Virus record (IMG/VR): IMGVR_UViG_3300042541_001369
Coordinates: 1 to 64,000 of that record
DNA: 64,000 nt
Origin: a virus
Reading direction: 5' to 3' (one strand)
Each line of letters opens with the position of its first letter. The first letter of the stretch is position 1. Below are positions 3,266-52,850 of this stretch, piece by piece. A program made the position numbers and the translations under genes. The notes under the pieces were generated by a model. That model was not told the origin of the DNA, did no database searches, and saw nothing but the letters and a program-made list of their open reading frames with translations.

Positions 3266-4204
3266 TTATAGTATTAATTCATTTATTGTTATTGAACATT
3301 TAGTTCTTTTTTTAATGTTTTCTTCCCAAGGAATAAACTCCAAATTTTTAATTCCCCCAATAATTTCAGGTGATATATTATTTTTAAATCCTTCTATAAT
3401 TGAATATTTATGGTCTAAATGAAACGCCCCGTCAACACCAGAATTATTTCTTTTTCCATAATTAGGTAATTGATTGATAGATTGTTGTCTTGTGAACCTC
3501 ATAACATCATTTTTATATTTTTTATAATCATCTTTAATATTTAAGTATTTGTCATATGATATCCCTCTAAATCTTTTTACAGTACCAACCGAGTTTCCCT
3601 CACTCATATTTCTACGATAATCGGTTAATTGTAAATATTTGTCAATAAAAGATTTTGTTAATCCTAACTGACAACCAATTTCTTCAGTATTTTTATAATC
3701 ATCCAAATACAACTTTTTAATTAAACTAATTTGTTCTTCAGATAAGTTAATTTTAACACCATTACTACGACCTTTCCTTAATATATTTTTTTCTTTTAAA
3801 ATTCTTTTAATTGGTGTAATACTGACATTAAAATCTATTGAAATTTTTTTTGCCGATAACCCTTCGTTATATTTTTTAATTATTGTATCAATATCGTCAA
3901 CACTAAATTCTTTTTTAGTTTTATCTCTATCTTCAATCCAAACATTTTTTTCAATCAAAATAGTTTTAACATTTTTGCGACCAATATTTATCATCATACT
4001 CACCTCACTATAACTAACCCCATTTTTATATAATTTAACTACCTCGCTAACAACCTCATCACTATATATTTTTTTCATGTGAGTTGGAGAACAGTTATTA
4101 CACTTCCAATTTTCTCGGATAGAACATTTTAACCTACTTTTAGTAGTGTAAGATTGTATTCCCCCACAATTAAAACAAGTTTTAATATATTCTTTATTAC
4201 TCAT
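3266..4204 (-). CDS. HNH homing-type endonuclease with zinc finger and three HTH repeats
   Basis: 312 residues in three parts. Residues about 10-41 hold four cysteines in CxxC pairs (CFNCGG and CNNC), a probable zinc-binding element. Three helix-turn-helix-like repeats follow at about 45-90, 100-145 and 155-195; each has a run such as EVVKLYKNGVSYSEVSMMIN or IIKKYNEGLSAKKISIDFNV and would read the DNA target. The C-terminal nuclease part has HLDHKYSIIEGF and, 24 residues on, NLEFIPWEENIKK, the H...N...N layout of HNH enzymes with conserved DH. It sits alone between two baseplate genes with its own ATATTTAT motif, as expected of a freestanding homing endonuclease that spreads by cutting phages lacking the insertion. 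No evidence shows whether it is active. Confidence 0.82.
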   Translation of the reverse strand: MSNKEYIKTCFNCGGIQSYTTKSRLKCSIRENWKCNNCSPTHMKKIYSDEVVSEVVKLYKNGVSYSEVSMMINIGRKNVKTILIEKNVWIEDRDKTKKEFSVDDIDTIIKKYNEGLSAKKISIDFNVSITPIKRILKEKNILRKGRSNGVKINLSEEQISLIKKLYLDDYKNTEEIGCQLGLTKSFIDKYLQLTDYRRNMSEGNSVGTVKRFRGISYDKYLNIKDDYKKYKNDVMRFTRQQSINQLPNYGKRNNSGVDGAFHLDHKYSIIEGFKNNISPEIIGGIKNLEFIPWEENIKKRTKCSITINELIL

Positions 4205-5409: not shown

Positions 5410-6230
5410 TATGGGTTAATATATTCATACCATTTTATTGGTGAACCCGCACCTATACGGCTATTTAAATAATCAAATACTTGGTAAGTTTTTGTGGTAT
5501 AATCTAAAACCACTTTATTATAAAAGTATCTACCACCATCAAATATGAATTTATCGGGTAAAATTCCTTGTGGTTCATTCATCATCTTAACGAAAACACC
5601 AAATCTGCCGTCAAAAAATTTAGCTGACATGTAGAATGTATCAATATTTAAATAAGTTATATCTTTCAACCAATAAATAAAAAACCCTTCTTTATCACCA
5701 ACAAAATCCAGAGTATAAGACGGTTTTCTAATATCAACATTTGGTGTTAATGGTGATATACTCACATTTTCAGTCGCCCCTTGTTGTACAGGAATTATGA
5801 TTGTAAAATAATTAGTTTGACTTTGGGAATCTTTTGTGTCGTAAAAATCAAGTTTAAAAAAAGATTTGGTAAACGGTTTTTCATAAAAATAAACCTGTGT
5901 TGGTGAAAACCCAGATGGTACCGCATTTGGGAATAAATAACTATTAACCCAATCGGTTGATGTTGTAGACGCAATCACAGGAACACTAGAGTCATAAAAA
6001 TGAAAATCATATTTAATTTCAGTTTTTTGATTTGGTTCATAAGATAAATGACTAAATCTTGATACCTCATAATCTTTAGCAATACCAATAACATCCGTTA
6101 AAACATCTTCTTCATAAATCTCAATACTATCATCTCTACCATAGAAATCCCATTTAATTTCAATAGGTAAATCGATAGCTTTGTTTCCCGTTGGGATGGT
6201 AAATAAAAATTTGTTACTCACAATTATCAA
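5409..6230 (-). CDS. Unknown baseplate-block protein
   Basis: 273 residues, not recognised. It is beta-rich and aromatic-rich (for example DLPIEIKWDFYGRDDSIEIYEEDVL near the N-terminus, split here as DLPIEIKWDFY then DDSIEIYEE), with no signal peptide or membrane helix. Its first 17 bases overlap the end of the 595-aa gene upstream and its stop overlaps the PKD gene start as TAATG. Such tight coupling suggests stoichiometric production with its neighbours. A virion role is inferred from position only. Confidence 0.6.
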   Translation of the reverse strand: MIIVSNKFLFTIPTGNKAIDLPIEIKWDFYGRDDSIEIYEEDVLTDVIGIAKDYEVSRFSHLSYEPNQKTEIKYDFHFYDSSVPVIASTTSTDWVNSYLFPNAVPSGFSPTQVYFYEKPFTKSFFKLDFYDTKDSQSQTNYFTIIIPVQQGATENVSISPLTPNVDIRKPSYTLDFVGDKEGFFIYWLKDITYLNIDTFYMSAKFFDGRFGVFVKMMNEPQGILPDKFIFDGGRYFYNKVVLDYTTKTYQVFDYLNSRIGAGSPIKWYEYINP

Positions 6231-8001
6231 TGGTTGGATCTGCGATTATGGTTTGTTCACTATAATTAGTTCCTTCTGGTATTATTCTAAAAATAATATT
6301 ACGAAAAGGGTAGTGAACACCGTTTAAAAAGGGGTAATTTACGCCAATACCACCACTATCAACAAACCCATACGGATATAAATCTCTCCATATAAACGAA
6401 TCTTTAGTTGTTGAGAAATGAGCATAATCCGGTATCCCAACAACATTTTTAATATCACCATCTTCAATATAATCTGAAAACACCCTTGTTGTTAACACAT
6501 GATGTGGTTGATAATAATACCCAAGTTGATTCTCCACCGTAGTCCCAATTCTAAATGAAAAAGGATTAAATCTTAATTTGTGAAATATGTTTGAGACAAC
6601 CCTCTCTTTTTGGTCATAATCATTCCATTCACAATAATCACCATCAATAACATCCCCCTCTTTAAGGGATTCAATATATGTGAATGTTATTGGCCCTGAT
6701 GCTGGGCCAAACCCTGTACTAATAGGGGTTGTATACGTATTAATTGGGAAATTACAATCGGAATTACTTTGTCCATTCGACCACCAAGAACTAGGTTGAC
6801 CTAATGGGTTTAAAGGTAAGTTAAATTCAAACCCTTGTTTTAATCCGTGATATCCTCCCAACCCATCTGGTATACCAAACATCCATCCAAAATAACCTTT
6901 ATATATAACGGTAAAGAATAATTCAGTTATTGGTCTTTTTTGGTTATCTCTAATCGGATTAACACTAATATCTTTATTAAAAGATAATGTATAAGATTGA
7001 GACCCTTCTTTAATTGATACTCTAGCGATATGGTCAGGTGTTAATCCACTACTTTCATATTGTTTCTTTTGTCCAAAAACATTTTGCTCAAATCCAGCTT
7101 TAACTAAAATAGCATTTTCCGATTCTGTTAATAATTTATTTCTTCTAACATAATACGTTGAAATCGTATCCGCCTCATGGTCATTTAATATCACCCTTTT
7201 TGCCGTCCCTATTACACCATCATTAAAAACTCCAGGTAAGTATCCAACATCAATAATGTTAAAAACATATTGTTCGCTACCAAAAGTATCAACCCCTAAA
7301 GAATCTATTTGAAATTTATCAATACCATTGTATAAAAAATTTAACTTAACAAATTCACCAACCGACATTCCGTGTTTAACGGGACATCTAAATGAAATCG
7401 TATTCATACCATTATGGGTAGTATTCTCAATAATAAAAGGAATCCCATCGCCCACAACCCACGTCATTGATGCGAACGTCTTTTTATCCGTTGCGGTCAT
7501 AATTTTAGTATAATCATTTTCATACCCATAACTAACAAAGAAGTTCCAATTGTAACTTGACGCGCTTTGGGGTATAAATGTTAAATGTTCATTCGGTGAT
7601 TGGGTATATCCCATAACATTATAATCTGTTCTAATAAAATCAAATTCATTATACTGGGGAAATCCTGACCACGACACATCGTTAGGGGGATTAGTACATT
7701 GGTCAATAGTCGCAGCAATCGAATTTATATAATATAAATTATTTTCAAATGGGGGGTAATTGGTAAATCCGGAATAAGAGTTTTGAAATAAAAGTGAAAA
7801 TTTACACGTAGGTCTAATAACATCAGAATTTTGTCGTTCATCATTAAAAAGTCGTTCTAAATCAACATCAATATTTCTATCAAACTCAACATTCTCTTTT
7901 ACTGTCTGTATTAATGGTACGTTAAATAATAATGTTGTGTCCGGAGCGGATTTATAACGTAACGAACCTAAAATTACCCTAATATCTTGTCTATTTCCCA
8001 T
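6214..8001 (-). CDS. Unknown baseplate-block protein, 595 aa
   Basis: No family recognised. The N-terminal 50 residues (RQDIRVILGSLRYKSAPDT onward) are followed by a long Gly/Asn/Tyr/Pro-rich body of the kind found in phage tail-surface proteins. No hydrophobic helix is long enough to span a membrane. Its ATG at 8001 lies one base past the stop of the 1694-aa gene, and its end overlaps the following gene by 17 bases. Probably a structural baseplate protein made with the 1694-aa protein. Confidence 0.6.
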   Translation of the reverse strand: MGNRQDIRVILGSLRYKSAPDTTLLFNVPLIQTVKENVEFDRNIDVDLERLFNDERQNSDVIRPTCKFSLLFQNSYSGFTNYPPFENNLYYINSIAATIDQCTNPPNDVSWSGFPQYNEFDFIRTDYNVMGYTQSPNEHLTFIPQSASSYNWNFFVSYGYENDYTKIMTATDKKTFASMTWVVGDGIPFIIENTTHNGMNTISFRCPVKHGMSVGEFVKLNFLYNGIDKFQIDSLGVDTFGSEQYVFNIIDVGYLPGVFNDGVIGTAKRVILNDHEADTISTYYVRRNKLLTESENAILVKAGFEQNVFGQKKQYESSGLTPDHIARVSIKEGSQSYTLSFNKDISVNPIRDNQKRPITELFFTVIYKGYFGWMFGIPDGLGGYHGLKQGFEFNLPLNPLGQPSSWWSNGQSNSDCNFPINTYTTPISTGFGPASGPITFTYIESLKEGDVIDGDYCEWNDYDQKERVVSNIFHKLRFNPFSFRIGTTVENQLGYYYQPHHVLTTRVFSDYIEDGDIKNVVGIPDYAHFSTTKDSFIWRDLYPYGFVDSGGIGVNYPFLNGVHYPFRNIIFRIIPEGTNYSEQTIIADPTIDNCE

Positions 8002-8002
8002 A

Positions 8003-11000
8003 TTAATCAGTTATTGTTTCAAATGATAACCATTTAGTCGCAAATCTATCGAAAGATGTTTTACCCTTTTTAAGTCCAAAATAAAAATGGAATGGTGCCC
8101 CTACGGTTATTGTTCTGGATAATGGTATATTAGGGTCTTGTGTTGTAGGGTTAGGTTCATATAGACCAGCACCATCAACTTGATATATATACCCTTTAAA
8201 ATCTTTAATGTTTGACGTTGATCCTCTAAAATATCTTGAATTTGGGTCAAGCCTATCCAAAGTTTGGTATTTATGTGTGAAAAACTTAAATCCACTAATT
8301 GGTGATGTATACCAATCATTACTTTGACTACCAAAGATACTATCACCGACCGAATTTGATTTAACTTCCCATTGATATAACGGGATTTCTTGAGTAAACA
8401 CGTTGATATTATTGAACGTGCACGAATCCGTAATCGCAGCATTATTATTAATAATCGTTCTCCGAGGTGTAATAAAGTCTCTAACTTGAGTATCAGATGA
8501 AAAGAATATACCAATAATCCCATTACCAACGGTAAAACTATTAAAATAAATAGGGTCTTGGGGTGGACCTGGAGCTGTCGGATAATTCTCTGGCTCAAAA
8601 TCAGCAACCCCCAACTCAGAACTAATCGATATCATTTGAGCATAATCCGCATCCACAAATTGTTTACTTCTTTTATCAAAATAAGATAAAACATTTGCCC
8701 CTCCTGTCCCAAACATTTGACCCAAGAAACTTGTATTCGTTAATCTACTAATAATAAATAAATTTAAAATCTCAGAAATATCTGTAAATGTTGTTTCACC
8801 TAAATTATTAACAACATACCCATCATAATCATCGGACATCGTAATTTCTTGTAGATACTGACTTCTAGGTCCTAAGTCCATAATTGTTGTTGGATATTTT
8901 AAATTTTTAGAATTCCCACCATAAGTGCCACTACCTGACAAAGGTGTTGGAGCATCCGACCCAATAAACCCAACACCATTTTTCCATGGACTACTCCTAT
9001 AATAAAAATTGTTTGTGGGATGTAAAACCAATGTGTCCCTACAATATTTACTATAAGGTCGATTTAAAGAATCATAAAATCTATCATTTTTAAATGAAAA
9101 CGCGTATAACGATCCATTAATCCAATTGTTAGTGAATATATGAGACCATACATTACGACAAGCAGCAAACGTTATTTGTAATCTTGACGACCATTCAGTA
9201 ATTAAACGAAGATCCCTCGGTAAACTTAAAAAGATTGTCGTTACTAATACATAACACCCATTTACCATAATATTTTTACCTTCACATGTATAACAGTCGT
9301 CACCATCTGGTGCAACGTCAACTTCATTTACATTTGGTAGATAACAACTTAATGGAACCATACCCCCACAAGTAAAGGTCTCTAAAATCGATGTGCTCAC
9401 ACCTGTAAAAGCTTCTTCTGAAAATTCTCCCGAATCAGAAATAGATGGAGAATTAGAAGCAGTACCTCCCAACGTAGACGATGTCCCTTCATCACTAATT
9501 AAAAACGCCCCAAAGCTAGTATTACTATGTAATGCGTAACTATTATTAAGATTATTAACTACTGATGTGGATGTTGGTAATCTGTCCGATCTCATAACAA
9601 TTTGATTACCCGAAGAACCTAAATTAGTATAACTATATGTTCCCGAATATCTTGGTGCGTAATAAATAGCATTATAACCAAGATACGAATTATTAGGTTT
9701 CATTATAATATTTTGTAACATAACGGATCCCCCATCAACAATCTCATTTATAAAATAACCTCTATTATCCGATGAATAAGTATTAACCGTCCAATCATAA
9801 TATCCGCAGATCCCAGGGATAGGTGGTAGCCAAACATATTGATCCCACTCAATTGTAAATCCATTATACGCCCAATCAATTAATGGATCAGGAACGAATG
9901 AATTAATTGATGCGGATTTAGTAGACAGTTCAGTATGACAAGCCGCATATAACCCTGGTGATCCCGCAGCAGGGACAAAACTAATATTACTATCATCAAG
10001 AGATGAATAATAACTTGGTAAATTTGATGTAAAACCCGTAAAACCAGCATTTGCTGGGATAGGTTCAGGTAGAAAATGAAATGAGTCATAATATAAATTC
10101 TCAGTAGTCCATGGATCTGATTGTGTAACATCAGATGTCATATTATGTCTAACAGAAGCAAACGACCCTTGTATTGGGTAATTTAATTTATACAGTAATG
10201 TTGGCCCACCCACAACTAACGACGGAACACTAGTTGGATATCCAAATAATTTACTTAAATCGTATGAATTTTGTAACCTTGTTGAGTTAGGGTCAACACC
10301 TCTAACTAAAAACGTCAAAACTTGTAAACCCCCATCTAAATATGACTGTAAAGGATTCTCCCTCAGAATAAGAGGTGAACCAGACCCAGCTGAAGATTCA
10401 AACGCACAATTATTACCAGTAACATATGTGAAAACCATATCGTTATTTAAATAACGATTATTTAAAGTAATGTCACTACCAACAGGGTTAGATAACCCTG
10501 AGAATGAATTATATGTCATTGCCGTAATAACTTGATAATATTCAATATCAATTGGGAATTTGGCGTATAATGCATCAGTAGGATCTTGATTTATTATATA
10601 TAGTGAGTTTGGTGGCGATATCGTACCTGACCCATCAGGGTTCGCATAATTAATTTGTAACGTTCCCGAATTATTTATAGTTGTTCCTGTTATACTTTTA
10701 CTTCCAAATTGGTTATATGTAGTAAACCCAGTAATATTAACATCTGTTGATAACATAGGGTCTTGGAAGGAAATTAATTGTCCTGGTTGAAGTAGGGATG
10801 AGTTAGATGGTTGACATGAAATAACCAATACATTATCATAATGAAATTTTGCCAATGGATTATTTAATGTTGTGTCAAACGTAACTTTAATCCTATTCTC
10901 CCCCCCACCTGGATTTAAACCACCAACATTATCAAAATATTTAGCTTTATTATTGAATAAATTAATTCTTTCCGCCAAAGTAATACTTGTTGTGAATATC

Positions 11001-13087
11001 TGTCCGTTATTACTAGGATCCCCATATGACTGAAGTTGAGGGGCTAATGATGTTGGTGTTGGGTGAAGAGTGTCTATATACGCACCCCCCATTATATTTT
11101 GAAACTTATATGGTTCCGACCATCCAGGATTAACATTTTGATAATTACCCGCTAATGTATATGTTGATAAAAATGCTGAGGATGGAGGCTGGGGTGGAAT
11201 AGACCCACCAACACTAGCGGCCGAAGCTCCCGTTTCATCAATTGATGTACCTTCATCACACGAACACATTTCACAGTCAGGGTACGATAAATTAGGTATG
11301 GTTATGTTTTTGAAATTTTCTCTAACCTTATATATCTTAATTGTTAAAAACGTAACTGTAATCGCCCCAAGTAAACAAGCCAAACCAATTAATGCAAATG
11401 GTAAAATTAAAAGTAACGCAGGAAAAGACACCCCCGCTGCTATAAAATTTTGAACCGCTAAAGTAATCAGATATAAACCCAACATTACTAAAAGTGGTAT
11501 TAATACGAAATTAACCAAAAAAGCAAAAATGTGCATCAAGATTACTGTTATGTACACCAAGGGTTTTGTTATAAAAAATAATATAATAAATAACAAATAA
11601 ATAAGATCAAATCTTAATACAGAATCATTAGTAGGATATTTAACAATCTCACTTTCACATGAATCATCCATGATATTTTTAATCGATACCATCCTATTTG
11701 ATAAATATCCTTTCCTATATTGATCCATTAATTGTGAAACGGTATAAACTTTATTATACATCATCTCATAAAAAGTATCTTCACAATTAACAGCCGATGG
11801 TACATCCGCATAATCATTCCAATCTAAGCTAAACGCATATGATTTAATCGCGTCTTGATAGATAACACTTGACGGGGAATATTTTAGAGGGTCGTCATCA
11901 CTACTTACCCACCCATACTCTCTAATATTAGGTACCAAGAAATATCCTCTCTTAACCGGCTCACTCAATGTTGTAGACTGATTCCATTTTACTTTAAAAC
12001 GATATTTCCCCTTTGTTGGGACACCCTTTTTAGAATCATTAGATAAAACTCTCTCCCCAAACTCATTAGTGATCACATAATCCATATTCATTGGGACATC
12101 AATTAACCAAGTTCCATTATCATCAATGACTTGACCACCACCCTCTAATTCAACAGTCTCCAATATAGGTTGACCATTAATATCAGGATAAATTGTTTGT
12201 CTTATGGCTAAAATTTCTCCAGGACCCGCAACTAAATTACAAAGGTTCCCTTGTTTTACTTTTGGTTTACAATTTCTTTTCTGAAACTGATCGTCATTAG
12301 ATGACATAATAGACCCCATGAATATTGATGTTGGGGTTATCAAAATATTAGCCCCCGATGTCAAATCAAAATCAGTTCTTGTTACTCCTAAATTACAAAC
12401 CTCAGGTTGTCCCCATAATGGTTCCACCTCAATATTATTATTCAAACTTATTATTTGAGGTAATTCATTTAAATTTGTCGAGCTTTTAAATTTATTTCCA
12501 GCAACTTGATCCGGAGTAGCAACACCCATACGAATTAAATCCTGAGGTGATAATGAAAACTCCCCAATGTCCGATAAATCAACATCAACATGAATTGTTT
12601 GATCCCCAGTTGGTACACCAAATATCATGTAATCACCACTTTCATTAGTTTTTGCCGTATACTTATAATACTTGTCATAAACCTCAATAAGTGTTGGTTC
12701 AACTAAAACATCATGTTTATCAAAAAAAGAACCTGTTGGTGAATGATTACTATATGATGGTAGATATGGTAATAAATTATATCTATATCCATCCTCATTT
12801 AAATCTGTTAATGTTTTATATGGATATAACTCGGAAATAATAGGGTTTGCTGCGTCAGTATCCGATAAAGGTATAAAGACCGATACTTTGGCATTAGGTA
12901 TTCCAAAACCATCATTCGCGGTAACTCTACCAATAACAACCCCATAATCGGAACATTGTCTTGTATATATTTGACTCGGTAATATTTTAAGGGATAAAAT
13001 CTCAAGATATTCAAAATCTTGGTCGATTAAAATCTTAATTGATTTATCCACCCCTACTTGAGTTCTTATCCTATATGAATTTGACAT
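8003..13087 (-). CDS. Giant tail/baseplate protein with N-terminal carboxypeptidase-regulatory-like fold and four membrane-type helices
   Basis: 1694 residues. About residues 45-180 resemble a carboxypeptidase-regulatory-like Ig fold: VIGRVTANDGFGIPNAKVSVF, later ESGDYMIFGVPTGDQTIHVDV, the usual repeat-of-sandwich pattern with a G-x-P turn. Residues about 490-590 are extremely hydrophobic with only short breaks and would form about four transmembrane helices, starting after SVLRFDL and ending before KIYKVRENF. A cysteine cluster (CEMCSCDEG) and a Gly/Ser/Pro linker follow. The remaining 1080 residues are polar, beta-rich virion-type sequence. A transmembrane bundle is very unusual in a baseplate protein; it may be shielded in the particle and released on infection. 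It lies upstream of the wedge genes and ends two bases before the next start. Function beyond 'tail structural' is inference. Confidence 0.65.
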   Translation of the reverse strand: MSNSYRIRTQVGVDKSIKILIDQDFEYLEILSLKILPSQIYTRQCSDYGVVIGRVTANDGFGIPNAKVSVFIPLSDTDAANPIISELYPYKTLTDLNEDGYRYNLLPYLPSYSNHSPTGSFFDKHDVLVEPTLIEVYDKYYKYTAKTNESGDYMIFGVPTGDQTIHVDVDLSDIGEFSLSPQDLIRMGVATPDQVAGNKFKSSTNLNELPQIISLNNNIEVEPLWGQPEVCNLGVTRTDFDLTSGANILITPTSIFMGSIMSSNDDQFQKRNCKPKVKQGNLCNLVAGPGEILAIRQTIYPDINGQPILETVELEGGGQVIDDNGTWLIDVPMNMDYVITNEFGERVLSNDSKKGVPTKGKYRFKVKWNQSTTLSEPVKRGYFLVPNIREYGWVSSDDDPLKYSPSSVIYQDAIKSYAFSLDWNDYADVPSAVNCEDTFYEMMYNKVYTVSQLMDQYRKGYLSNRMVSIKNIMDDSCESEIVKYPTNDSVLRFDLIYLLFIILFFITKPLVYITVILMHIFAFLVNFVLIPLLVMLGLYLITLAVQNFIAAGVSFPALLLILPFALIGLACLLGAITVTFLTIKIYKVRENFKNITIPNLSYPDCEMCSCDEGTSIDETGASAASVGGSIPPQPPSSAFLSTYTLAGNYQNVNPGWSEPYKFQNIMGGAYIDTLHPTPTSLAPQLQSYGDPSNNGQIFTTSITLAERINLFNNKAKYFDNVGGLNPGGGENRIKVTFDTTLNNPLAKFHYDNVLVISCQPSNSSLLQPGQLISFQDPMLSTDVNITGFTTYNQFGSKSITGTTINNSGTLQINYANPDGSGTISPPNSLYIINQDPTDALYAKFPIDIEYYQVITAMTYNSFSGLSNPVGSDITLNNRYLNNDMVFTYVTGNNCAFESSAGSGSPLILRENPLQSYLDGGLQVLTFLVRGVDPNSTRLQNSYDLSKLFGYPTSVPSLVVGGPTLLYKLNYPIQGSFASVRHNMTSDVTQSDPWTTENLYYDSFHFLPEPIPANAGFTGFTSNLPSYYSSLDDSNISFVPAAGSPGLYAACHTELSTKSASINSFVPDPLIDWAYNGFTIEWDQYVWLPPIPGICGYYDWTVNTYSSDNRGYFINEIVDGGSVMLQNIIMKPNNSYLGYNAIYYAPRYSGTYSYTNLGSSGNQIVMRSDRLPTSTSVVNNLNNSYALHSNTSFGAFLISDEGTSSTLGGTASNSPSISDSGEFSEEAFTGVSTSILETFTCGGMVPLSCYLPNVNEVDVAPDGDDCYTCEGKNIMVNGCYVLVTTIFLSLPRDLRLITEWSSRLQITFAACRNVWSHIFTNNWINGSLYAFSFKNDRFYDSLNRPYSKYCRDTLVLHPTNNFYYRSSPWKNGVGFIGSDAPTPLSGSGTYGGNSKNLKYPTTIMDLGPRSQYLQEITMSDDYDGYVVNNLGETTFTDISEILNLFIISRLTNTSFLGQMFGTGGANVLSYFDKRSKQFVDADYAQMISISSELGVADFEPENYPTAPGPPQDPIYFNSFTVGNGIIGIFFSSDTQVRDFITPRRTIINNNAAITDSCTFNNINVFTQEIPLYQWEVKSNSVGDSIFGSQSNDWYTSPISGFKFFTHKYQTLDRLDPNSRYFRGSTSNIKDFKGYIYQVDGAGLYEPNPTTQDPNIPLSRTITVGAPFHFYFGLKKGKTSFDRFATKWLSFETITD

Positions 13088-13160: not shown

Positions 13161-14999
13161 TCAGGTGAAATTAACTGTTTTTAAATTCTTAACCCTAACA
13201 TTAATATCTTTATTTGGAAATCTTACTTGATACGTCTGACTTGGTTCCGCAAATATTGTCTCATCAATCAACTCAATCTCTCTAGTATCAAGATCTAAAT
13301 ATTTTTGAGATGTTTGAGATGATGAGTATTGCCCACCAACTTTATTAAAAACTTGAATATTCGAAACTGAAATAACACCATTTTCACTTTGTATTTCTCT
13401 CCTAATTTCAGAAATATATACATTCTGACCCATCTGTCTATTTGAAGGATCAAAATATGTTGAAACAATATTAACAATTTTAGAAATCAACGATCCCTGA
13501 TTTTGACTATTATCTAACACGACATCTAAGTTCATACCTAAGTCAATAACACTTGCTGTCTCAACCGATATGTAATCATTAATCATTCTATAGTTAGATA
13601 AATAATTAGCTACATTATTTTTCAATGTGTTTGAAACAATTTCGGTTAGTTTACCCGAATCATCATAAGACAACATTTTTATTTTAATCTTATTATTTTC
13701 TTCCGTTATCGCCACCTTAGCAGGAGCTCCAAACTGTGAGGGCATTGTTCTAATAAGAGAATCATAATCATTAACAGTTACCGCCCTATTTTGTGCCGAG
13801 AAATTAAACCCAACTAAATTTCTTACCTCTTCTGTTGTTGGAGATGCTGACCCCCCAATTGCCGCTGTAACATTATTACAACTTAATGAATTAACAACAC
13901 TAGTGTTAATAGAATCTGAAGGCCCATTAACAAAGAAAGAAACCGTACCAATTTGAGATATAACATTAACACCCAAATTACTTCCTGTACCACCTCCAAT
14001 TCTATATTGAATGAACATTGTTGTATTAGATTTAATAGTACTACCTAATGCCAAATTATTAGAATATTTATATAGATTTAATTCATATCCATTTCTCGCA
14101 AACTCTCTTAATTGTTCATCCGCAGATTGACTACCACCACCAAAAGTCATTTTTAAAAACCCTTCTGGAGTAAATTCAGTTATAAATTTATCGCTCGTCT
14201 CAATATACTTCCCAACTTTAATACCCGGTCGATCAGACACTTTAGTAGGATCTTCAATGAAGACTCTATCTTCAACTAAAGCCTTAACTTCATACCATCT
14301 ATTATCTAACCCTAAAAATTCTTGTGAAGAAGGCATATTAGCATATTGAGTTCCGTCTTTTAATAAAACACTTGTTATACCTAAAACGTTTTTTTCAGGT
14401 AAAAACATTTCAAAAAATGGTTTAACATCATTAGGTGTCATAACTCTTTTAAACACCTTAGTTATACCATTAACAACAGTTTCTCTTTTTACAATCGTAT
14501 AATTAAGTAATTTATTATTTGAATCAAAATTAGGAATTTTTAATCTATTAGGATATCCATCAGCATTAAGACCCGATGAGAAATCAATATCATAAACAGT
14601 TTCAAATACTTGACCAGCACCACTAACTTGAGACCCTCTTCTTAATATACCACAATACCTTAAATCTTCTTTATCCCCAAAAGCAGGAACAGTTATAGAG
14701 AAATCAACTAAAGCAACCGACGGTCTTTGACCAGGAATCTTTAATCCATAAGTTCTTGCAATATTAAAAATTGACGATCTTTGTTGAGCATATTGTAAAA
14801 CAGTTTCCTGAATACTTCTATCAATATTAAACTGTAAGTTATCACTAACAGCAGCATTTAAATCTAATAAGGCCGAGAATACTGACGCATCATTAAAGTT
14901 GTCAATTAACTCGGGATAGTATGTTCGAGTAAAATTAATTAATTCAGTCCTTATTGACTGAAAATCCCTTGTCGTATACGATATTTTTTTATTAGCCAT
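13161..14999 (-). CDS. Baseplate wedge subunit, T4 gp6-like
   Basis: 612 residues, close to T4 gp6 in size. The N-terminus has the conserved wedge pattern SYTTRDFQSIRTELINFTR, then DASVFSALLDLNAAVSDNLQF. The central/C-terminal part has NRAVTVNDYDSLIRTMPSQF followed by APAKV, a hallmark of gp6/gpJ-type baseplate proteins. gp6 forms the inner baseplate ring and clamps gp7 and gp25 in the wedge. The gp25 homologue lies immediately upstream with a six-base gap, so the two partners are made from one message, as in many myoviruses. The 73-base gap after its stop holds A/T-rich sequence but no convincing hairpin. Confidence 0.85.
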   Translation of the reverse strand: MANKKISYTTRDFQSIRTELINFTRTYYPELIDNFNDASVFSALLDLNAAVSDNLQFNIDRSIQETVLQYAQQRSSIFNIARTYGLKIPGQRPSVALVDFSITVPAFGDKEDLRYCGILRRGSQVSGAGQVFETVYDIDFSSGLNADGYPNRLKIPNFDSNNKLLNYTIVKRETVVNGITKVFKRVMTPNDVKPFFEMFLPEKNVLGITSVLLKDGTQYANMPSSQEFLGLDNRWYEVKALVEDRVFIEDPTKVSDRPGIKVGKYIETSDKFITEFTPEGFLKMTFGGGSQSADEQLREFARNGYELNLYKYSNNLALGSTIKSNTTMFIQYRIGGGTGSNLGVNVISQIGTVSFFVNGPSDSINTSVVNSLSCNNVTAAIGGSASPTTEEVRNLVGFNFSAQNRAVTVNDYDSLIRTMPSQFGAPAKVAITEENNKIKIKMLSYDDSGKLTEIVSNTLKNNVANYLSNYRMINDYISVETASVIDLGMNLDVVLDNSQNQGSLISKIVNIVSTYFDPSNRQMGQNVYISEIRREIQSENGVISVSNIQVFNKVGGQYSSSQTSQKYLDLDTREIELIDETIFAEPSQTYQVRFPNKDINVRVKNLKTVNFT

Positions 15000-15005
15000 A
15001 TATTA

Positions 15006-15461
15006 TTAAATATTAATGATTACAAAATCACTCTGATTAAATGCTGAATCAGTAACTATATAATCAATCTTAATTTTAGCGGTATGTTCTTTTTCACTAA
15101 TACCAGGAACCCGATAAACTCTTGAATCCCCATCAACATAAGTACCTTTATCTTCCTCTCCATTAGAAGCGTCAGTTACACTTATTTTAGTTATAGTAAT
15201 TCCCGGAATATATTCAGAGACTGAATCTCTTATCTCCGCCTCAATATCCGAAAATGTTGGCCCATCCATAGGTTCAAAAATGTATTCATAAAGTCTAGTT
15301 CCAAAATCAGGTAAATAATATCTAGTACCTTTTCTTGTTAATAATAAATGAATCAAATTTGATCTAATCTCCTCATCAGCAAAATTTGATAACGAAACAT
15401 AATTACCTTTTAAAGAATCTCTAAAAGGGAAGTTAATACCATATGTTTTTCCTTCTGCCAT
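15006..15461 (-). CDS. Baseplate wedge protein, gp25/GPW family
   Basis: 151 residues, the normal length of this family. The signature GTRYYLPDFGTRLYEYIF (about residues 45-62) matches the G-R-x-x-x-P-x-F-G-x-x-L motif of T4 gp25 and P2 gpW. The next segment SDIEAEIRDSVSEYIPGITI has the family helix-loop before the last strands. In T4 this protein nucleates sheath assembly on the baseplate. It heads the gp25-gp6 pair and has an ATATTTAT motif in its leader. Although often called 'lysozyme', no catalytic motif is apparent. Confidence 0.88.
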   Translation of the reverse strand: MAEGKTYGINFPFRDSLKGNYVSLSNFADEEIRSNLIHLLLTRKGTRYYLPDFGTRLYEYIFEPMDGPTFSDIEAEIRDSVSEYIPGITITKISVTDASNGEEDKGTYVDGDSRVYRVPGISEKEHTAKIKIDYIVTDSAFNQSDFVIINI

Positions 15462-20540: not shown

Positions 20541-21155
20541 CTATAAAATTTTGTTACTCTTTTTTAAATTGTCTTCAGCCCATAATGGTTGGAGATTTGT
20601 ATAATGACACAACCGATAAAGGTCGTCTTCTGTTTTTGCCGATGATAAGGGAATAATATGATCAATATGCCACTCAACCCTATTATCCCAACCCATACCA
20701 TCAATAAATTGACTTTCTAAATGTTCCTTTAAAAATTCTGGTGAACAACCAACAATATCAAAGGTTTTTTGTGATCTATATTTTAAATATCGGTTAACCG
20801 AATTTCTCATATCAGTTTTAAGTTTAAACATGATATCTTCTTTTTTTCTTTTTTTCTGGTAGTTGTTAAAATATTCTCGATTATCACGATACCATTTTAA
20901 TTTTCTTTCTTTTTCTGTTTCGTAATTAATAATATAATATTCTTCAAAGTATTTTTTATAATATTCTTGGTTTTCCTCATTCCATTTAGTGTTATATTCT
21001 TTAATTTTTCCTTTGTTTTCTATCCTATATTTTTTAGAATCAATCGTTTGGCATTCTCGACAATAACTTCTAACACCACATTTAACTTTAGACATCTTAT
21101 TAAAGTCTGTCAGTTTTTTTTCAACACCACATTTAGTACAAACTTTTGTCTCCAT
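20541..21155 (-). CDS. HNH endonuclease, cassette copy 1
   Basis: 204 residues. An N-terminal zinc finger (CTKCGVEK, then CRECQ about 20 residues later) is followed by a very basic, tyrosine-rich helical region and a C-terminal nuclease: HIDHIIPLSSA, then HYTNLQPLWAEDNLKKSNK, the H...N...N arrangement of HNH enzymes that nick or cut DNA. FDIVGCSPEFLKEHLE just before the active site is shared with the second copy at 52134. Its first 23 bases overlap the end of a ribbon-helix-helix gene. Inserted between uvsX and rnh, it looks like a mobile homing-type cassette. Confidence 0.85.
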   Translation of the reverse strand: METKVCTKCGVEKKLTDFNKMSKVKCGVRSYCRECQTIDSKKYRIENKGKIKEYNTKWNEENQEYYKKYFEEYYIINYETEKERKLKWYRDNREYFNNYQKKRKKEDIMFKLKTDMRNSVNRYLKYRSQKTFDIVGCSPEFLKEHLESQFIDGMGWDNRVEWHIDHIIPLSSAKTEDDLYRLCHYTNLQPLWAEDNLKKSNKIL

Positions 21156-39556: not shown

Positions 39557-39778
39557 CTATATTATCAATTTATTTTTTTTATAATATTTCTTTTTTGGAG
39601 AGTACGACCGAACACCTTGTTTTCTAAGGTTAGTCATTTTTTTCTTCATCCTTAAATCATTCTTAATCATTGTATTATGTAACACTCTCATATTTTCTTC
39701 ATGAACACTATATGTGTTTTGAGAACATGAACACACTATTAAGATTAATAATGGTGTGGTTATTTTGATTAAAAACAT
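39557..39778 (-). CDS. Small predicted lipoprotein with basic tail
   Basis: 73 residues from ATG 39778 (MFLIKITTPLLILIVCSCSQ): a short basic start, a 13-residue hydrophobic core and V-C-S-C as lipobox, so the mature chain would begin at the second Cys. The remainder is strongly basic (KMTNLRKQGVRSYSPKKKYY). An in-frame ATG at 39826 would add 16 residues, but it lies inside the terminator hairpin, so the later start is preferred. A lipid-anchored small phage protein could act in lysis (Rz1/spanin type) or surface exclusion; neither is shown. It lies between tail tube and hub genes. Confidence 0.55.
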   Translation of the reverse strand: MFLIKITTPLLILIVCSCSQNTYSVHEENMRVLHNTMIKNDLRMKKKMTNLRKQGVRSYSPKKKYYKKNKLII

Positions 39779-39815
39779 GTAATATTTAAAGTTTGTTTTA
39801 TTTTTTTTTATAAAA

Positions 39816-39849
39816 AAAATTCCCATACATTTATTTATATGGGAATTTT
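39816..39849 (-). terminator. Terminator of the tail-tube gene
   Basis: A 12-bp stem with GGGAATTTT at its base and a ten-base loop, followed on the minus strand by a run of Ts. It lies 42 bases past the gp19 stop and just before the lipoprotein start, so the abundant tube message ends here. Confidence 0.72.
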
Positions 39850-39890: not shown

Positions 39891-40379
39891 TTAATAAACC
39901 AATATACATCTATCCATACGGATTGTCGCTGTTATACTAGCAATTGCGTCTGTACTATAAGCCAATGAATCAAAGTTAACGTCAGATAACCAACTACCCT
40001 CCATAATCCATTTCTCAACAACTACACCTGTTGGGTCTAACATCTCAAGATCAATATTTTTCTTATAACCAGCAGCATATCCCATACGACCTGTTACTGA
40101 TTCAGCACATAAACGTACCCACTCCATTAAAGCTTGTGATGCTGAAGGCCCAATTGGGTCACGGAATTTAACATTTATAGTTCCCCAAGTAAAACGTCCT
40201 GCAACATATGTTGAAGTATTTAAGAATTGAATCTCAACTGGATTTATTGTTATATGTGGTCTAGCTGCCGTTTCAACGAACCATTCATTAATCCCCAAAG
40301 TAGATGGGAAACGAAGAATGAACCTATTTTGTCTTTTCGGTTCATAAGGAATCGGCATTTTCATTAGTAAATCAGCCAT
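39891..40379 (-). CDS. Tail tube protein, T4 gp19-like
   Basis: 162 residues, the same length as T4 gp19. PYEPKRQNRFILRFPSTLGI near the N-terminus, then ETAARPHITINPVEIQFLNT and FTWGTINVKFRDPIGPSASQ follow the gp19-family beta-barrel order. MEWVRLCAESVTGRMGYAAG and MLDPTGVVVEKWIM correspond to the helix and last strands. It polymerises into the inner tube through which DNA passes. It has an extended 32-base leader with ATATTTAT and its own terminator, as expected for a high-copy virion protein. Confidence 0.85.
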   Translation of the reverse strand: MADLLMKMPIPYEPKRQNRFILRFPSTLGINEWFVETAARPHITINPVEIQFLNTSTYVAGRFTWGTINVKFRDPIGPSASQALMEWVRLCAESVTGRMGYAAGYKKNIDLEMLDPTGVVVEKWIMEGSWLSDVNFDSLAYSTDAIASITATIRMDRCILVY

Positions 40380-46810: not shown

Positions 46811-49690
46811 TTGGATAATATAAACACGGGAACTACTGTCAACTTGATTGAACAAAAGGCGTTGTTAATACTTGACACTTATTCTGGCGCAAATAATTAT
46901 ATTATCAAATTAAAGTTTCAAAAAGAAACAAATAAAAAGTTTTACCCAACAAGAGCTCAATCAGAGTATATTGTTAATTTTTACGAAACACCACCTAAAG
47001 TAGCAAAAAAATGGGTCGATTTAGACCCATATTTTGCTAAAAAAATTGCTGATGAAAAATTATACACTGAAATCCCTAAGGAAATTTGGGTTGAAAAACT
47101 TTTAGCTGAAAAAGAAAAATCGTATCATGTTTGGGGTAAAGTATTATCCGGTGAAACAATTCATGATTTTTGGTTACCAAAGGGAGCGTTAATTAAAACA
47201 CACACAATTAAAAACATTGTTGTGGATTATTCGAAATACTCTAACCGACCTCCACTTGATCATCAAAAAGAGGCTATTGAGAAACTTACTGGATCTAAAA
47301 GGTTTATTTTGGCTGATGATATGGGTTTGGGCAAGTGCGAACCTAAGAATAATAAGGTATTTACACCAAATGGTAGAAAAAAAATTGGGGATTTAAAAGT
47401 CGGAGATAACGTTATTGGTAGTGACGGCAAATCGTATAACGTTGTTGGTGTATTTCCACAAGGTTTAAAGGAAACATATAAAATTACATTCAATGACGGA
47501 TTTTCAATTTTATCAGGAGATGAACATTTATGGTCTGTTTCATCCCCCAATTACGGTAAAAATAGAAAAAACGAAAGACTAAAAAAATCTTTAGTTTTAT
47601 CAACAAAACAAATGTATGAGGGAGGTAAAATTAAAGTTAAAGGTATTGACTATAATAAAGATAAAGAATACGAAATTGAAACTTATTATAAATCTCCAAA
47701 CGGGAATAATAAATGGCAAATACCAATCGTAAATCCAATACAATTTGAACGAAATGATACCCTTCCGATTAACCCTTATTTTTTAGGTCTGATTTTAGGA
47801 GATGGTCATATAACTAAATCGTCTTGTGTTTTTACAGTTCACTGCGACGATTATGATGAATTATTTTACGGTTTTAATTTAAATGAAAATAAAAAAATTG
47901 ACAATAAAAGAAAAGGAAATAAATTTATTGGTAGGGATATATTAAACGAACTCAAACTTAACGAGGCTCGATCCCATAATAAATTCATACCTGATATATA
48001 CAAATATTCATCAATTGAAAATAGATTGGCAATTCTACAAGGATTAATGGATACTGACGGACATTGTATGTTTAACGGAAATGAAACTTTTTTAGGGACT
48101 GAATATTGTACCATTTCAAAACAACTTTGTGATGACGTTGTTGAAGTGGTACAAACATTAGGGGGTGTTGCCAGAGTTAAAACTCGTATCCCCACATACA
48201 CATATAAAGGTATTAAAATGGAAGGTAAATTAGCGTATAGAGTTAATATTAAATTACCCTTAGGTATGAATCCATTTCGATTAAAACGTAAATCGGAAAG
48301 ATATATCGAACCAAAAAAATACCCCACAGGTAGATATATTAAAAATATTGAAAAAGTTGGATTTGAAGAAAGTGTTTGCATATCGGTAGATTCCCCCGAT
48401 AAATTGTACGTTACTGAACACGCAATTGTTACTCATAATACGACCTCAACAATTATTGCTGCGTTAGAAACTAAGGTAAAGAAAATTTTAATTATCTGTC
48501 CAGCATCCTTAAAAATTAACTGGCAAAGAGAGATTGAGAATTACACCGATAGAAGTGTTTATATTTCGGAAGGTAAAAATTTTTCAACGGATCACGACTT
48601 TGTTATTGTTAATTACGACATTCTTAAAAACTTTTACGATGTTAAAGATAAAGATAATTCTTTAATCACCAAAGGGAAATTTGATCTTATTATTTTAGAT
48701 GAGGCTCACTATGTTGCCAACGGAACAAGTAATCGGTCAAAATTGGTAAATGGTTTTGCTAAAAATTGTGAAAGGGTTTGGTTATTAACGGGAACACCTA
48801 TGACTAATCGACCAATGAATTATTTCAACCTATTATCTCTTATTGAAAGTCCTGTTAGTAATAATTGGATGGCGTTTGCCATTAGGTACTGTCAAGGGTA
48901 TCAATTTACTGCAGGAAAAAGAAAAATATGGAATGTCTCAGGAGCATCAAACTTAGAAGAATTGAGAGATAGGACATCAAAACAGGTGTTGAGAAGATTG
49001 AAAACAGATGTTTTAGATTTACCTGAAAAAATTATCACACCAGTTTATTTAAAATTAAAATCAAAACTTTATGAAGGATTGATGGGTGAATATTATGATT
49101 GGTTTAATAAAAACCCTGATGAAAGTAATTCATTAACCGTTCAGTTCAGTAAATTAATGAAAGTTCGTCAAGTGATTGCTGAAGAAAAAATTAAAGATAC
49201 CATTGAGTTGGCTGAGAATATTTTAGAACAAGGAAAGAAGGTAATTATTTTTACCAATTTTACTGACTCGTTAAATAAAATTGCCGATCACTTTGGTAAA
49301 CAAGCTGTGAGGTTAGACGGTTCAACGGGAAAACCCCAACGACAATACGCTGTAGATCAATTCCAAGAGAACGATAAAGTTAAAGTATTTGTCGGAAATT
49401 TAAGAGCTGCGGGGGTGGGTATCACTCTAACCGCAGCGGAAGCTGTAATTATGAATGATTTATCTTTTGTTCCTGGGGATCTTGCTCAAGGAGAAGATAG
49501 AGCTTATAGATATGGACAAAACAATTCGGTATCGATTTATTATCCATTATTCATCAATTCAATTGAGAGTGTAATATATGATATGGTAAACCAAAAGAAA
49601 CAAAATATTAATACCGTAATGGGTGATAATATAGAAGACAAGGGTGATTTTATCGGGGAACTAATGAATAAAATAAATAATAGGGGTTAA
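46811..49690 (+). CDS. SNF2-type DNA helicase/ATPase (UvsW-like) interrupted by an intein
   Basis: 959 codons; 591 residues after splicing. Extein motifs: motif I DDMGLGK|TTS split by the intein at K175, motif Ia ICPASLKINWQREI, motif II LIILDEAHYVANG, motif III LLTGTPMTNRPMNYFNLLS, motif IV VIIFTNFTDSLNKIADHF, motif V GVGITLTAAEAVIMNDLSF, motif VI DRAYRYGQ. These are SNF2/SWI2-family motifs, close to the SMARCAL1/UvsW-like branch that drives fork regression and branch migration. The start must be TTG 46811: an in-frame TAA lies just upstream (TAA TCT TTG) and the next Met is residue 171. It lies at a divergent junction with a T-rich leader. Function in replication/repair requires intein excision because the Walker A Thr follows the intein. 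Confidence 0.85.
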   Translation: MDNINTGTTVNLIEQKALLILDTYSGANNYIIKLKFQKETNKKFYPTRAQSEYIVNFYETPPKVAKKWVDLDPYFAKKIADEKLYTEIPKEIWVEKLLAEKEKSYHVWGKVLSGETIHDFWLPKGALIKTHTIKNIVVDYSKYSNRPPLDHQKEAIEKLTGSKRFILADDMGLGKCEPKNNKVFTPNGRKKIGDLKVGDNVIGSDGKSYNVVGVFPQGLKETYKITFNDGFSILSGDEHLWSVSSPNYGKNRKNERLKKSLVLSTKQMYEGGKIKVKGIDYNKDKEYEIETYYKSPNGNNKWQIPIVNPIQFERNDTLPINPYFLGLILGDGHITKSSCVFTVHCDDYDELFYGFNLNENKKIDNKRKGNKFIGRDILNELKLNEARSHNKFIPDIYKYSSIENRLAILQGLMDTDGHCMFNGNETFLGTEYCTISKQLCDDVVEVVQTLGGVARVKTRIPTYTYKGIKMEGKLAYRVNIKLPLGMNPFRLKRKSERYIEPKKYPTGRYIKNIEKVGFEESVCISVDSPDKLYVTEHAIVTHNTTSTIIAALETKVKKILIICPASLKINWQREIENYTDRSVYISEGKNFSTDHDFVIVNYDILKNFYDVKDKDNSLITKGKFDLIILDEAHYVANGTSNRSKLVNGFAKNCERVWLLTGTPMTNRPMNYFNLLSLIESPVSNNWMAFAIRYCQGYQFTAGKRKIWNVSGASNLEELRDRTSKQVLRRLKTDVLDLPEKIITPVYLKLKSKLYEGLMGEYYDWFNKNPDESNSLTVQFSKLMKVRQVIAEEKIKDTIELAENILEQGKKVIIFTNFTDSLNKIADHFGKQAVRLDGSTGKPQRQYAVDQFQENDKVKVFVGNLRAAGVGITLTAAEAVIMNDLSFVPGDLAQGEDRAYRYGQNNSVSIYYPLFINSIESVIYDMVNQKKQNINTVMGDNIEDKGDFIGELMNKINNRG
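47336..48439 (+). mobile_element. Intein with LAGLIDADG-type homing endonuclease
   Basis: 368 residues (176-543 of the host protein). It begins with Cys176 directly after GLGK and block A CEPKNNKVFTPNGRKKIGDL, and ends HN before Thr544, which is the +1 nucleophile. Block B-like HLWSV, endonuclease blocks FLGLILGDGH and LAILQGLMDTDGHC (the two LAGLIDADG helices), and block F/G VCISVDSPDKLYVTEHAIVTHN are visible. Insertion in the Walker A P-loop is the favourite site of ATPase inteins, because loss is lethal to the gene. A 1104-bp clean in-frame unit. Confidence 0.9.
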
Positions 49691-52133: not shown

Positions 52134-52850
52134 TTACAATATTTTACACCCTTTACTTAAATTGTCAAAAGCCCATAGTGGCTGTAAGTTTGTATAATGA
52201 CAAAGTTTATAAAGGTCTTCTTCTGTGTTTGCCGATGATAATGGTATAATATGGTCAATATGAATGTGTTGTCCCATTAATTCCCAAGACATCCCTTCTG
52301 TGAATTGTTTTTCAATATATTCTTTTAAAAATTCTGGTGTGCAACCAACAATATCAAATGTTTTATTTTTCTTTGTGATATTATTTGATTTCATAAAAAT
52401 AGATATTCTCACCCTCATATTGTGAGTAATTTTAAATATAAGGTCATATTTTTTTCTATTTTTTTGATAATCATTACTATATGTTGGATTTTTTTCTCGA
52501 TATTCAAATGAATACATTGGATTAGCCTCACGAAACTTTCGACTTTTTTCTTTTATAAGTTCACGATTATTCAAATAATATTTTCGAGAAACATTAGGTT
52601 GGTTTAACTTTATCTTTTCTTTGTTTTTTTCTTGATAAATTTTGTTTTTTTCTTTAATAATCTTTTGATTATTTAATTTATAATTTTTTGAATATTTTTT
52701 TATTTTAGTTTGATTTTTTTCTCGATATTTTTTGGCGTTCAAATTAAAACATATTTTACATGAGGCTCGGTATCCTTGATTATTTGGGTTAAAATAAAAT
52801 TCGCAGACATCTTTTTCTACCTCACACTTACTACAAATTTTTGTTTCCAT
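52134..52850 (-). CDS. HNH endonuclease, cassette copy 2
   Basis: 238 residues, clear paralogue of the 20541 gene. Both start METK(V/I)C(T/S)KC-EVEK, carry a basic tyrosine-rich spacer and share FDIVGC(S/T)PEFLKE, then HIDHIIPLSSA, LCHYTNLQPLWA and a K-IL ending. The spacer is longer here and rich in KEKN/YREKN repeats. It overlaps the end of an RHH gene by 20 bases. It sits between gp13 operon and DNA polymerase genes in another genome segment. Confidence 0.85.
   Translation of the reverse strand: METKICSKCEVEKDVCEFYFNPNNQGYRASCKICFNLNAKKYREKNQTKIKKYSKNYKLNNQKIIKEKNKIYQEKNKEKIKLNQPNVSRKYYLNNRELIKEKSRKFREANPMYSFEYREKNPTYSNDYQKNRKKYDLIFKITHNMRVRISIFMKSNNITKKNKTFDIVGCTPEFLKEYIEKQFTEGMSWELMGQHIHIDHIIPLSSANTEEDLYKLCHYTNLQPLWAFDNLSKGCKIL

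Follow-up and report, generated by a model that had tools for sequence, protein, structure and literature searches.

Why would a giant protein encoded among the baseplate genes of a contractile-tailed phage carry a long, almost wholly apolar segment? The question is raised by a stretch of 64,000 nucleotides (the window) from the IMG/VR virus record IMGVR_UViG_3300042541_001369, whose main features are collected in Table 1. An earlier reading of the sequence alone (the original prediction) had placed a 1694-aa protein in a baseplate block. The corresponding ORF exists, gp25 and gp6 are encoded immediately upstream, and the synteny with gp6 extends to related loci. The surrounding genes form a T4-type late block, all on the same strand, in the order sheath, tube, hub proteins, gp25, gp6/J, the giant protein and unknown genes; the adjacent gp25 and gp6/J genes, with sheath and tube genes in the region, identify it as a T4-type contractile-tail baseplate block. 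Among the 217 related loci with enough flanking sequence, gp6 was directly upstream in 172, and in most of the other 45 it was found about 1.0-1.2 kb upstream. Genes for gp25 also occur near the giant gene in related loci, and that for the 595-aa downstream neighbour starts within 300 bp of its end in 227 out of 266. From its place after gp25 and gp6, the giant protein is most likely a wedge or periphery protein of the baseplate.

Table 1. Location of the features discussed in the text, as positions of the window; residue numbers are those of the giant protein.
Feature	Position	Strand	Basis
Giant baseplate-block protein, 1694 aa	8003..13087	-	ORF, family and related loci
Hydrophobic segment, residues 487-588	11324..11629	-	KD, shuffles, conservation in loci and clusters
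Predicted helix 495-553, 59 aa	11429..11605	-	AlphaFold, pLDDT ~75-87
Predicted helix 563-593	11309..11401	-	AlphaFold, pLDDT ~75-87
Invariant C477, N-terminal of the segment	11657..11659	-	Alignment
Invariant H519, within the segment	11531..11533	-	Alignment
C605-x2-C608-x-C610 (CEMCSC, 605-610), after the segment	11258..11275	-	Cluster conservation
N-terminal beta-sandwich, CarboxypepD_reg-like, about residues 45-222	12422..12955	-	PF13620; PDB structure matches
C-terminal part, residues 630-1694	8006..11200	-	Fairly confident model, pLDDT 81
595-aa protein, conserved downstream neighbour	6214..8001	-	Synteny
gp6/Baseplate_J wedge protein, directly upstream	13161..14999	-	phrog_219, PF04865
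gp25 wedge protein	15006..15461	-	phrog_261, PF04965
Candidate tape measure protein, 624 aa	36678..38552	-	Between tube/hub genes and a very large gene
Tail tube	39891-40379	-	
Tail sheath, 1121 aa	41496-44861	-	

Relatives of the giant protein are encoded in at least 594 IMG/VR stretches and belong to a large family of uncultured tailed phages. Further scans with divergent members brought the loci to about 270 in total; an ORF for the protein was present in all but one of the 267 related loci, and 76 clusters with less than 85% identity between them were aligned. The family is one that annotation libraries miss. No match was retrieved from Pfam or PHROGs (E≤0.001), from PDB chain sequences searched with the family profiles (E≤1) or by tblastn from 50,697 phage records, where the two halves of the protein gave none even at E≤5; the hundreds of contigs of the lineage are unmatched in the phage record collection that was searched. 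Bacterial genome contigs, which might have pointed to a host or prophage link, contained no relatives. BFVD has one uncharacterised entry, A0A8S5LA66 (Myoviridae sp. ctPuP5), that is truly homologous to the N-terminal part (40% identity across 456 columns, E 2.5e-42).

Among proteins with records, gp6 is most closely related to its counterparts in Flavobacterium phage immuto, Microcystis phage Mel-JY01 and a 484-kb uncultured phage (25-28% identity). Large proteins encoded after gp6 in immuto (1265 aa), Mel-JY01 (1336 aa) and LR756508 (1400 aa) were considered as counterparts; HMM comparison identified none of them as a homologue, and all are devoid of an apolar segment. Moraphages are jumbo phages, most of them linked to Bacteroidota, and no tape measure gene has been recognised in them; their core genes encode gp25, gp6, gp19 and the sheath, and a Lys-tRNA ligase is present in 24 of 28 genomes (PMC12619734). 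The tail genes are present in the window, and no Lys-tRNA ligase was found in six large contigs related to it. Moraphages are a possible home of the lineage, to be taken as a lead.

The apolar residues, originally predicted at about 490-590, were located at 487-588, the sole stretch of the giant protein with KD19>1.6. Its 101-aa mean KD of 1.94 lies above every one of 2000 shuffles of the same protein (maximum 1.11). D, E, K and R are all absent from residues 509-583; this uncharged run of 75 aa (shuffles: maximum 81, mean 35) is by itself less telling than the KD. The helical hydrophobic moment of the segment is low, so that it has no polar face. It shows the strongest hydrophobicity of the tail block, in which the giant protein is alone in being strongly hydrophobic, a small lipoprotein-like ORF aside. 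That ORF, of 89 aa (window 39557-39826, minus strand), lies between the tube and hub genes and has a hydrophobic N-terminus that ends in a lipobox-like LIVCSC; it is possibly a small lipoprotein of the tail block.

As the original prediction had proposed, the same segment was sought at the same place in relatives, and it is kept in all 266 loci encoding the protein. With a strict setting, the related proteins contain no second membrane-type segment. The segment is present in 76 out of 76 clusters, with a length of 40 to 111 aa; in the shortest members (L036, L041 and L044), 40-47 apolar residues leave room for two membrane passes only. Mean pairwise identity across the clusters is 0.38 at residues 490-530 and 0.17 at 531-588, compared with 0.65-0.73 in the N-terminal part (0.73 at residues 1-250) and 48-73% in the parts that neighbour the segment. 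Despite this drift in sequence and length, the maximum KD stays within 2.2-3.45 across clusters, and a pooled pN/pS of 0.29, against 0.22 in the rest of the protein, indicates purifying selection only slightly relaxed relative to other parts. Shuffles, conservation and pN/pS together rule out chance or an AT-rich artefact as the source of the segment. Since hydrophobicity is kept while sequence and length are free, contact with lipid is suggested, or at least the absence of a single specific packed core; at the level of sequence, the pattern of drift speaks for lipid-facing rather than core residues.

Residues 1-640 were modelled with AlphaFold2 as a single chain from 75 sequences, with modest confidence (pLDDT 72, pTM 0.61). 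The model comprises a beta-rich N-terminal part and disordered linkers at 452-493 and 599-640 (pLDDT <50). Rather than the buried core of a soluble fold, against which the original prediction had been staked, the segment is modelled as two apolar helices that stand apart from the beta fold on these linkers. The four helices proposed originally were not recovered, as a simple segmentation gave three in the giant protein and one to four across the family, and AlphaFold gave two long ones. The outcome of our home-made segmentation into membrane passes varies with the penalty, so the number of passes was not taken as evidence. Two points weigh against a membrane explanation: the 59-aa predicted helix exceeds what a bilayer needs, and a K/R-Pro turn after about 17 residues of the segment makes for a short first pass. 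If embedded in a membrane, the modelled helix 495-553 would have to kink or turn at P509, P531 or both. Taken together, the extreme and universal hydrophobicity, the free sequence drift and a model without soluble burial support a membrane-type segment, and with it a part of the original interpretation.

On either side of the linkers, the protein appears to be folded. The N-terminal beta-sandwich falls in the best-conserved part; PF13620 gave weak matches to 73 of the 75 members (E≤1, best 7e-5; member 1 below the curated cut-off), and CnaB/prealbumin-like sandwiches were among the PDB matches of the N-terminal part. For residues 630-1694, Foldseek retrieved no match from the PDB at E≤0.001.

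A CxxCxC cluster had been noticed in the original prediction. It corresponds to CEMCSC, just beyond the interval then given for the segment, yet where it had been described; the invariance of C477 and H519 is a further detail absent from that account. C605 and C608 are found in 76/76 clusters and C610 in 73/76, and the three clusters lacking C610 are exactly those with a Cys seven residues before C605 (C-x6-C-x2-C). The loss is thus compensated, leaving four cysteines always at hand, as a metal site would need. Judging from this pattern, C477 and C605/C608/C610 constitute a candidate four-Cys site for a metal, most likely zinc, which would pin both ends of the segment together. Both C477 and C605-C610 sit in low-confidence regions of the AlphaFold model. 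The giant protein has 16 well-conserved Cys in total; those beyond the four of the segment (e.g. 45, 231, 273, 283, 435, 1240, 1248, 1265, 1278, 1310 and 1349) perhaps serve in additional metal sites or in disulfides.

In T5 and lactococcal phages, the job of membrane insertion is usually assigned to the tape measure protein. The giant protein is not the tape measure protein of this phage: it follows gp6, while the 624-aa candidate suits that role in position and length. Homologues of the candidate (587-646 aa) are encoded in six large related contigs. Its maximum KD is 1.11 in the window, 0.74-1.07 in five relatives and 1.76 in one, so the candidate has no membrane segment in the window and in five out of six large relatives, whereas the giant protein always has one. 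This suggests that the giant protein supplies the membrane-inserting element. In T5 pb2*, a channel is proposed to arise from the insertion of 46 hydrophobic residues (PMC10038345). In TP901-1, the first hydrophobic region of the tape measure protein is essential for infection, although the authors of that study consider that its hydrophobic regions may instead serve chaperone binding (PMC5099701). In both cases a large tail protein carries largely apolar residues (about 46 in T5 pb2, 70-90 in TP901-1); the shortest members of our family have 40-47. Unlike these proteins, the giant protein is encoded after gp25-gp6, in a phage with a contractile tail, and its segment, which lies between two folded parts, is putatively clamped by Cys.

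The reading that we favour, at slightly less than an even chance, is that of a lineage-specific giant baseplate protein with a membrane-insertable helical segment that is probably deployed at infection for anchoring or insertion. The four-Cys, probably zinc, site would pin the segment ends at its base, so that the segment loops out between the two folded parts as a hairpin or small bundle held on flexible linkers. In the free virion, the apolar segments may pack together within the sixfold baseplate; upon adsorption and baseplate rearrangement, they would be released and inserted into the host envelope, where they would anchor the baseplate and possibly line or seal the puncture. They would thereby take over the job of the tape measure hydrophobic segments of T5 and lactococcal phages. 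By analogy with T5 pb2, a segment that stays concealed until contraction and is then set free is plausible. The sequences show the segment, its kept hydrophobicity, the Cys pattern, the place in the operon and most tape measure candidates without such a segment; that the protein is in virions, how many copies there are, whether it binds metal, and its insertion, with the time and the membrane concerned, are parts of this reading that we infer.

The original prediction named the inner membrane as the target, for which we find no support. The gp25-gp6-giant gene order suggests instead a wedge, which would stay close to the cell surface as the tube is driven inwards. From there, the outer membrane would be met first, and reaching the inner membrane would require the protein to travel with the tube; this suggests that the two membranes are equally likely targets. 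A more far-reaching version, which we regard as rather doubtful, is that the lineage moved membrane insertion from the tape measure protein to a giant baseplate protein, with a metal-clamped helical hairpin of variable length in each sixth of the baseplate, together forming a multi-helix envelope collar around the puncture. Still little is known of how contractile phages seal and cross membranes once their tube has been driven in, and the universally kept segment offers a deletable element for asking whether a baseplate anchors in or opens the envelope.

The main rival, unlikely in our estimate, places the membrane step in the producing cell. The protein would be inserted co-translationally into the cytoplasmic membrane with both large domains in the cytosol, and baseplates and tails would be built on the membrane, as in T6SS and thylakoid-anchored CIS, to be freed at lysis. 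A 75-residue uncharged stretch, such as that of the giant protein, is a strong signal for co-translational insertion, and the ribosome-bound chain could enter the membrane of the producing cell first. Four Cys bridging the segment ends would imply that both ends are on one side, as this topology needs. Contractile machines anchored in this manner exist: in tCIS, baseplate or fibre extensions (Cis12/Cis13) attach the machine to the membrane (PMC8894136). They resemble the giant protein as baseplate-associated elements of a contractile machine, the membrane tie being a proposal in our case, and differ in that the membrane helix is in the fibre-like Cis13, Cis12 having only a putative amphipathic helix, and in that the machine is anchored inside its own cell. 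No sequence relation to the solved Cis12/Cis13 chains was detected (profiles against PDB chains, E≤1). In Streptomyces, CisA, a membrane adaptor encoded just after the baseplate genes, is needed for contraction and function (PMC12237407); unlike the giant protein, it is a separate single-pass protein outside the baseplate subunits. Against anchoring during assembly, a lytic virion would need to leave the membrane, and the segment flanks have no clear positive-inside bias (summed over 76 clusters, 136 K/R vs 246 D/E in the N flank and 172 vs 164 in the C flank).

Also consistent with assembly on a membrane is a putative membrane-anchored alpha/beta-hydrolase gene located between gp6 and the giant gene, directly before the latter, in a subclade. 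All 40 of its occurrences (17 distinct proteins; L049:2471-3382, L028:6253-7179, L031:7020-7922 and 37 other loci) are at this position and none elsewhere among the loci examined; the window contains no copy. The product, of about 303 aa, has an apolar N-terminal part, a GHSxGG motif and an invariant later D and H. No PHROG matched at E≤0.001, and Pfam matches were weak: of three proteins, one matched DUF900, just over the cut-off. A membrane enzyme that cleaves lipids or esters would, next to the giant protein, fit membrane work.

Less favoured, and in our view distinctly unlikely, is a soluble bundle in which the apolar helices of six or more chains form an extended hydrophobic core, in the baseplate or around the hub, with no contact to a membrane at any time. 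The long continuous helix predicted by AlphaFold, in place of separate membrane passes, is in line with it, as is T4. That baseplate proteins normally lack such segments, as originally stated, holds for most T4 baseplate proteins; the exceptions are gp7 and gp29, each with one apolar helix. The helix of gp7, annotated as a predicted integral membrane domain, is weaker (KD 1.84-2.07; T4 2.07) and is kept as far as Vibrio phage V09. In solution gp7 is monomeric (PMC3004832), so apolar helices may be soluble. Like the giant protein, itself a probable wedge component, gp7 is a large wedge protein with an apolar helix, encoded after gp6; unlike it, gp7 has a single weaker helix near the C-terminus. 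Homology between the two was rejected, since hhalign of two family profiles gave a probability below 1%, and comparison of the family HMM with T4 tail proteins found no gp7 homology. A trait of the T4 gp7 family is an N-terminal helix-turn-helix that joins the (gp6)2-gp7 core bundle; the N-terminus of the giant protein is modelled as a coil and beta-sandwich with no such element, although pLDDT is only 54-65 for residues 1-40. As for the bundle, a sixfold packed core should be better conserved than a segment of 40-111 aa whose identity falls to 17% beside neighbours at 48-73%, and a KD of up to 3.45 with no polar face is far above that of T4 baseplate proteins.

A giant protein that acts outside the virion, as an assembly factor, a chaperone or a late-infection membrane protein that happens to sit in the tail operon, would accord with the lack of a homologue with a known virion role and is nevertheless very improbable given its fixed place between gp6 and the conserved 595-aa gene in hundreds of loci, and given that its very large, beta-rich C-terminal part and its Ig-like N-terminal domain look structural in the models.

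Other genes of the window are also unusual. In the tail sheath, homology to known sheaths is mainly confined to the last third (~760-1121); the long N-terminal part is mostly specific to this lineage, and 14 Cys are present in the protein. The ORF at 46811-49690 (plus strand, 959 aa) combines terminase large subunit homology in its N-half with a match to phrog_62 'DNA helicase' in its C-half. Likely HNH/homing endonuclease genes are located at 3266-4204, 20541-21155 and 52134-52850 (minus strand), the first identified by PHROG and the others by eye, and one of the three sits within the baseplate cluster, downstream of the giant gene.
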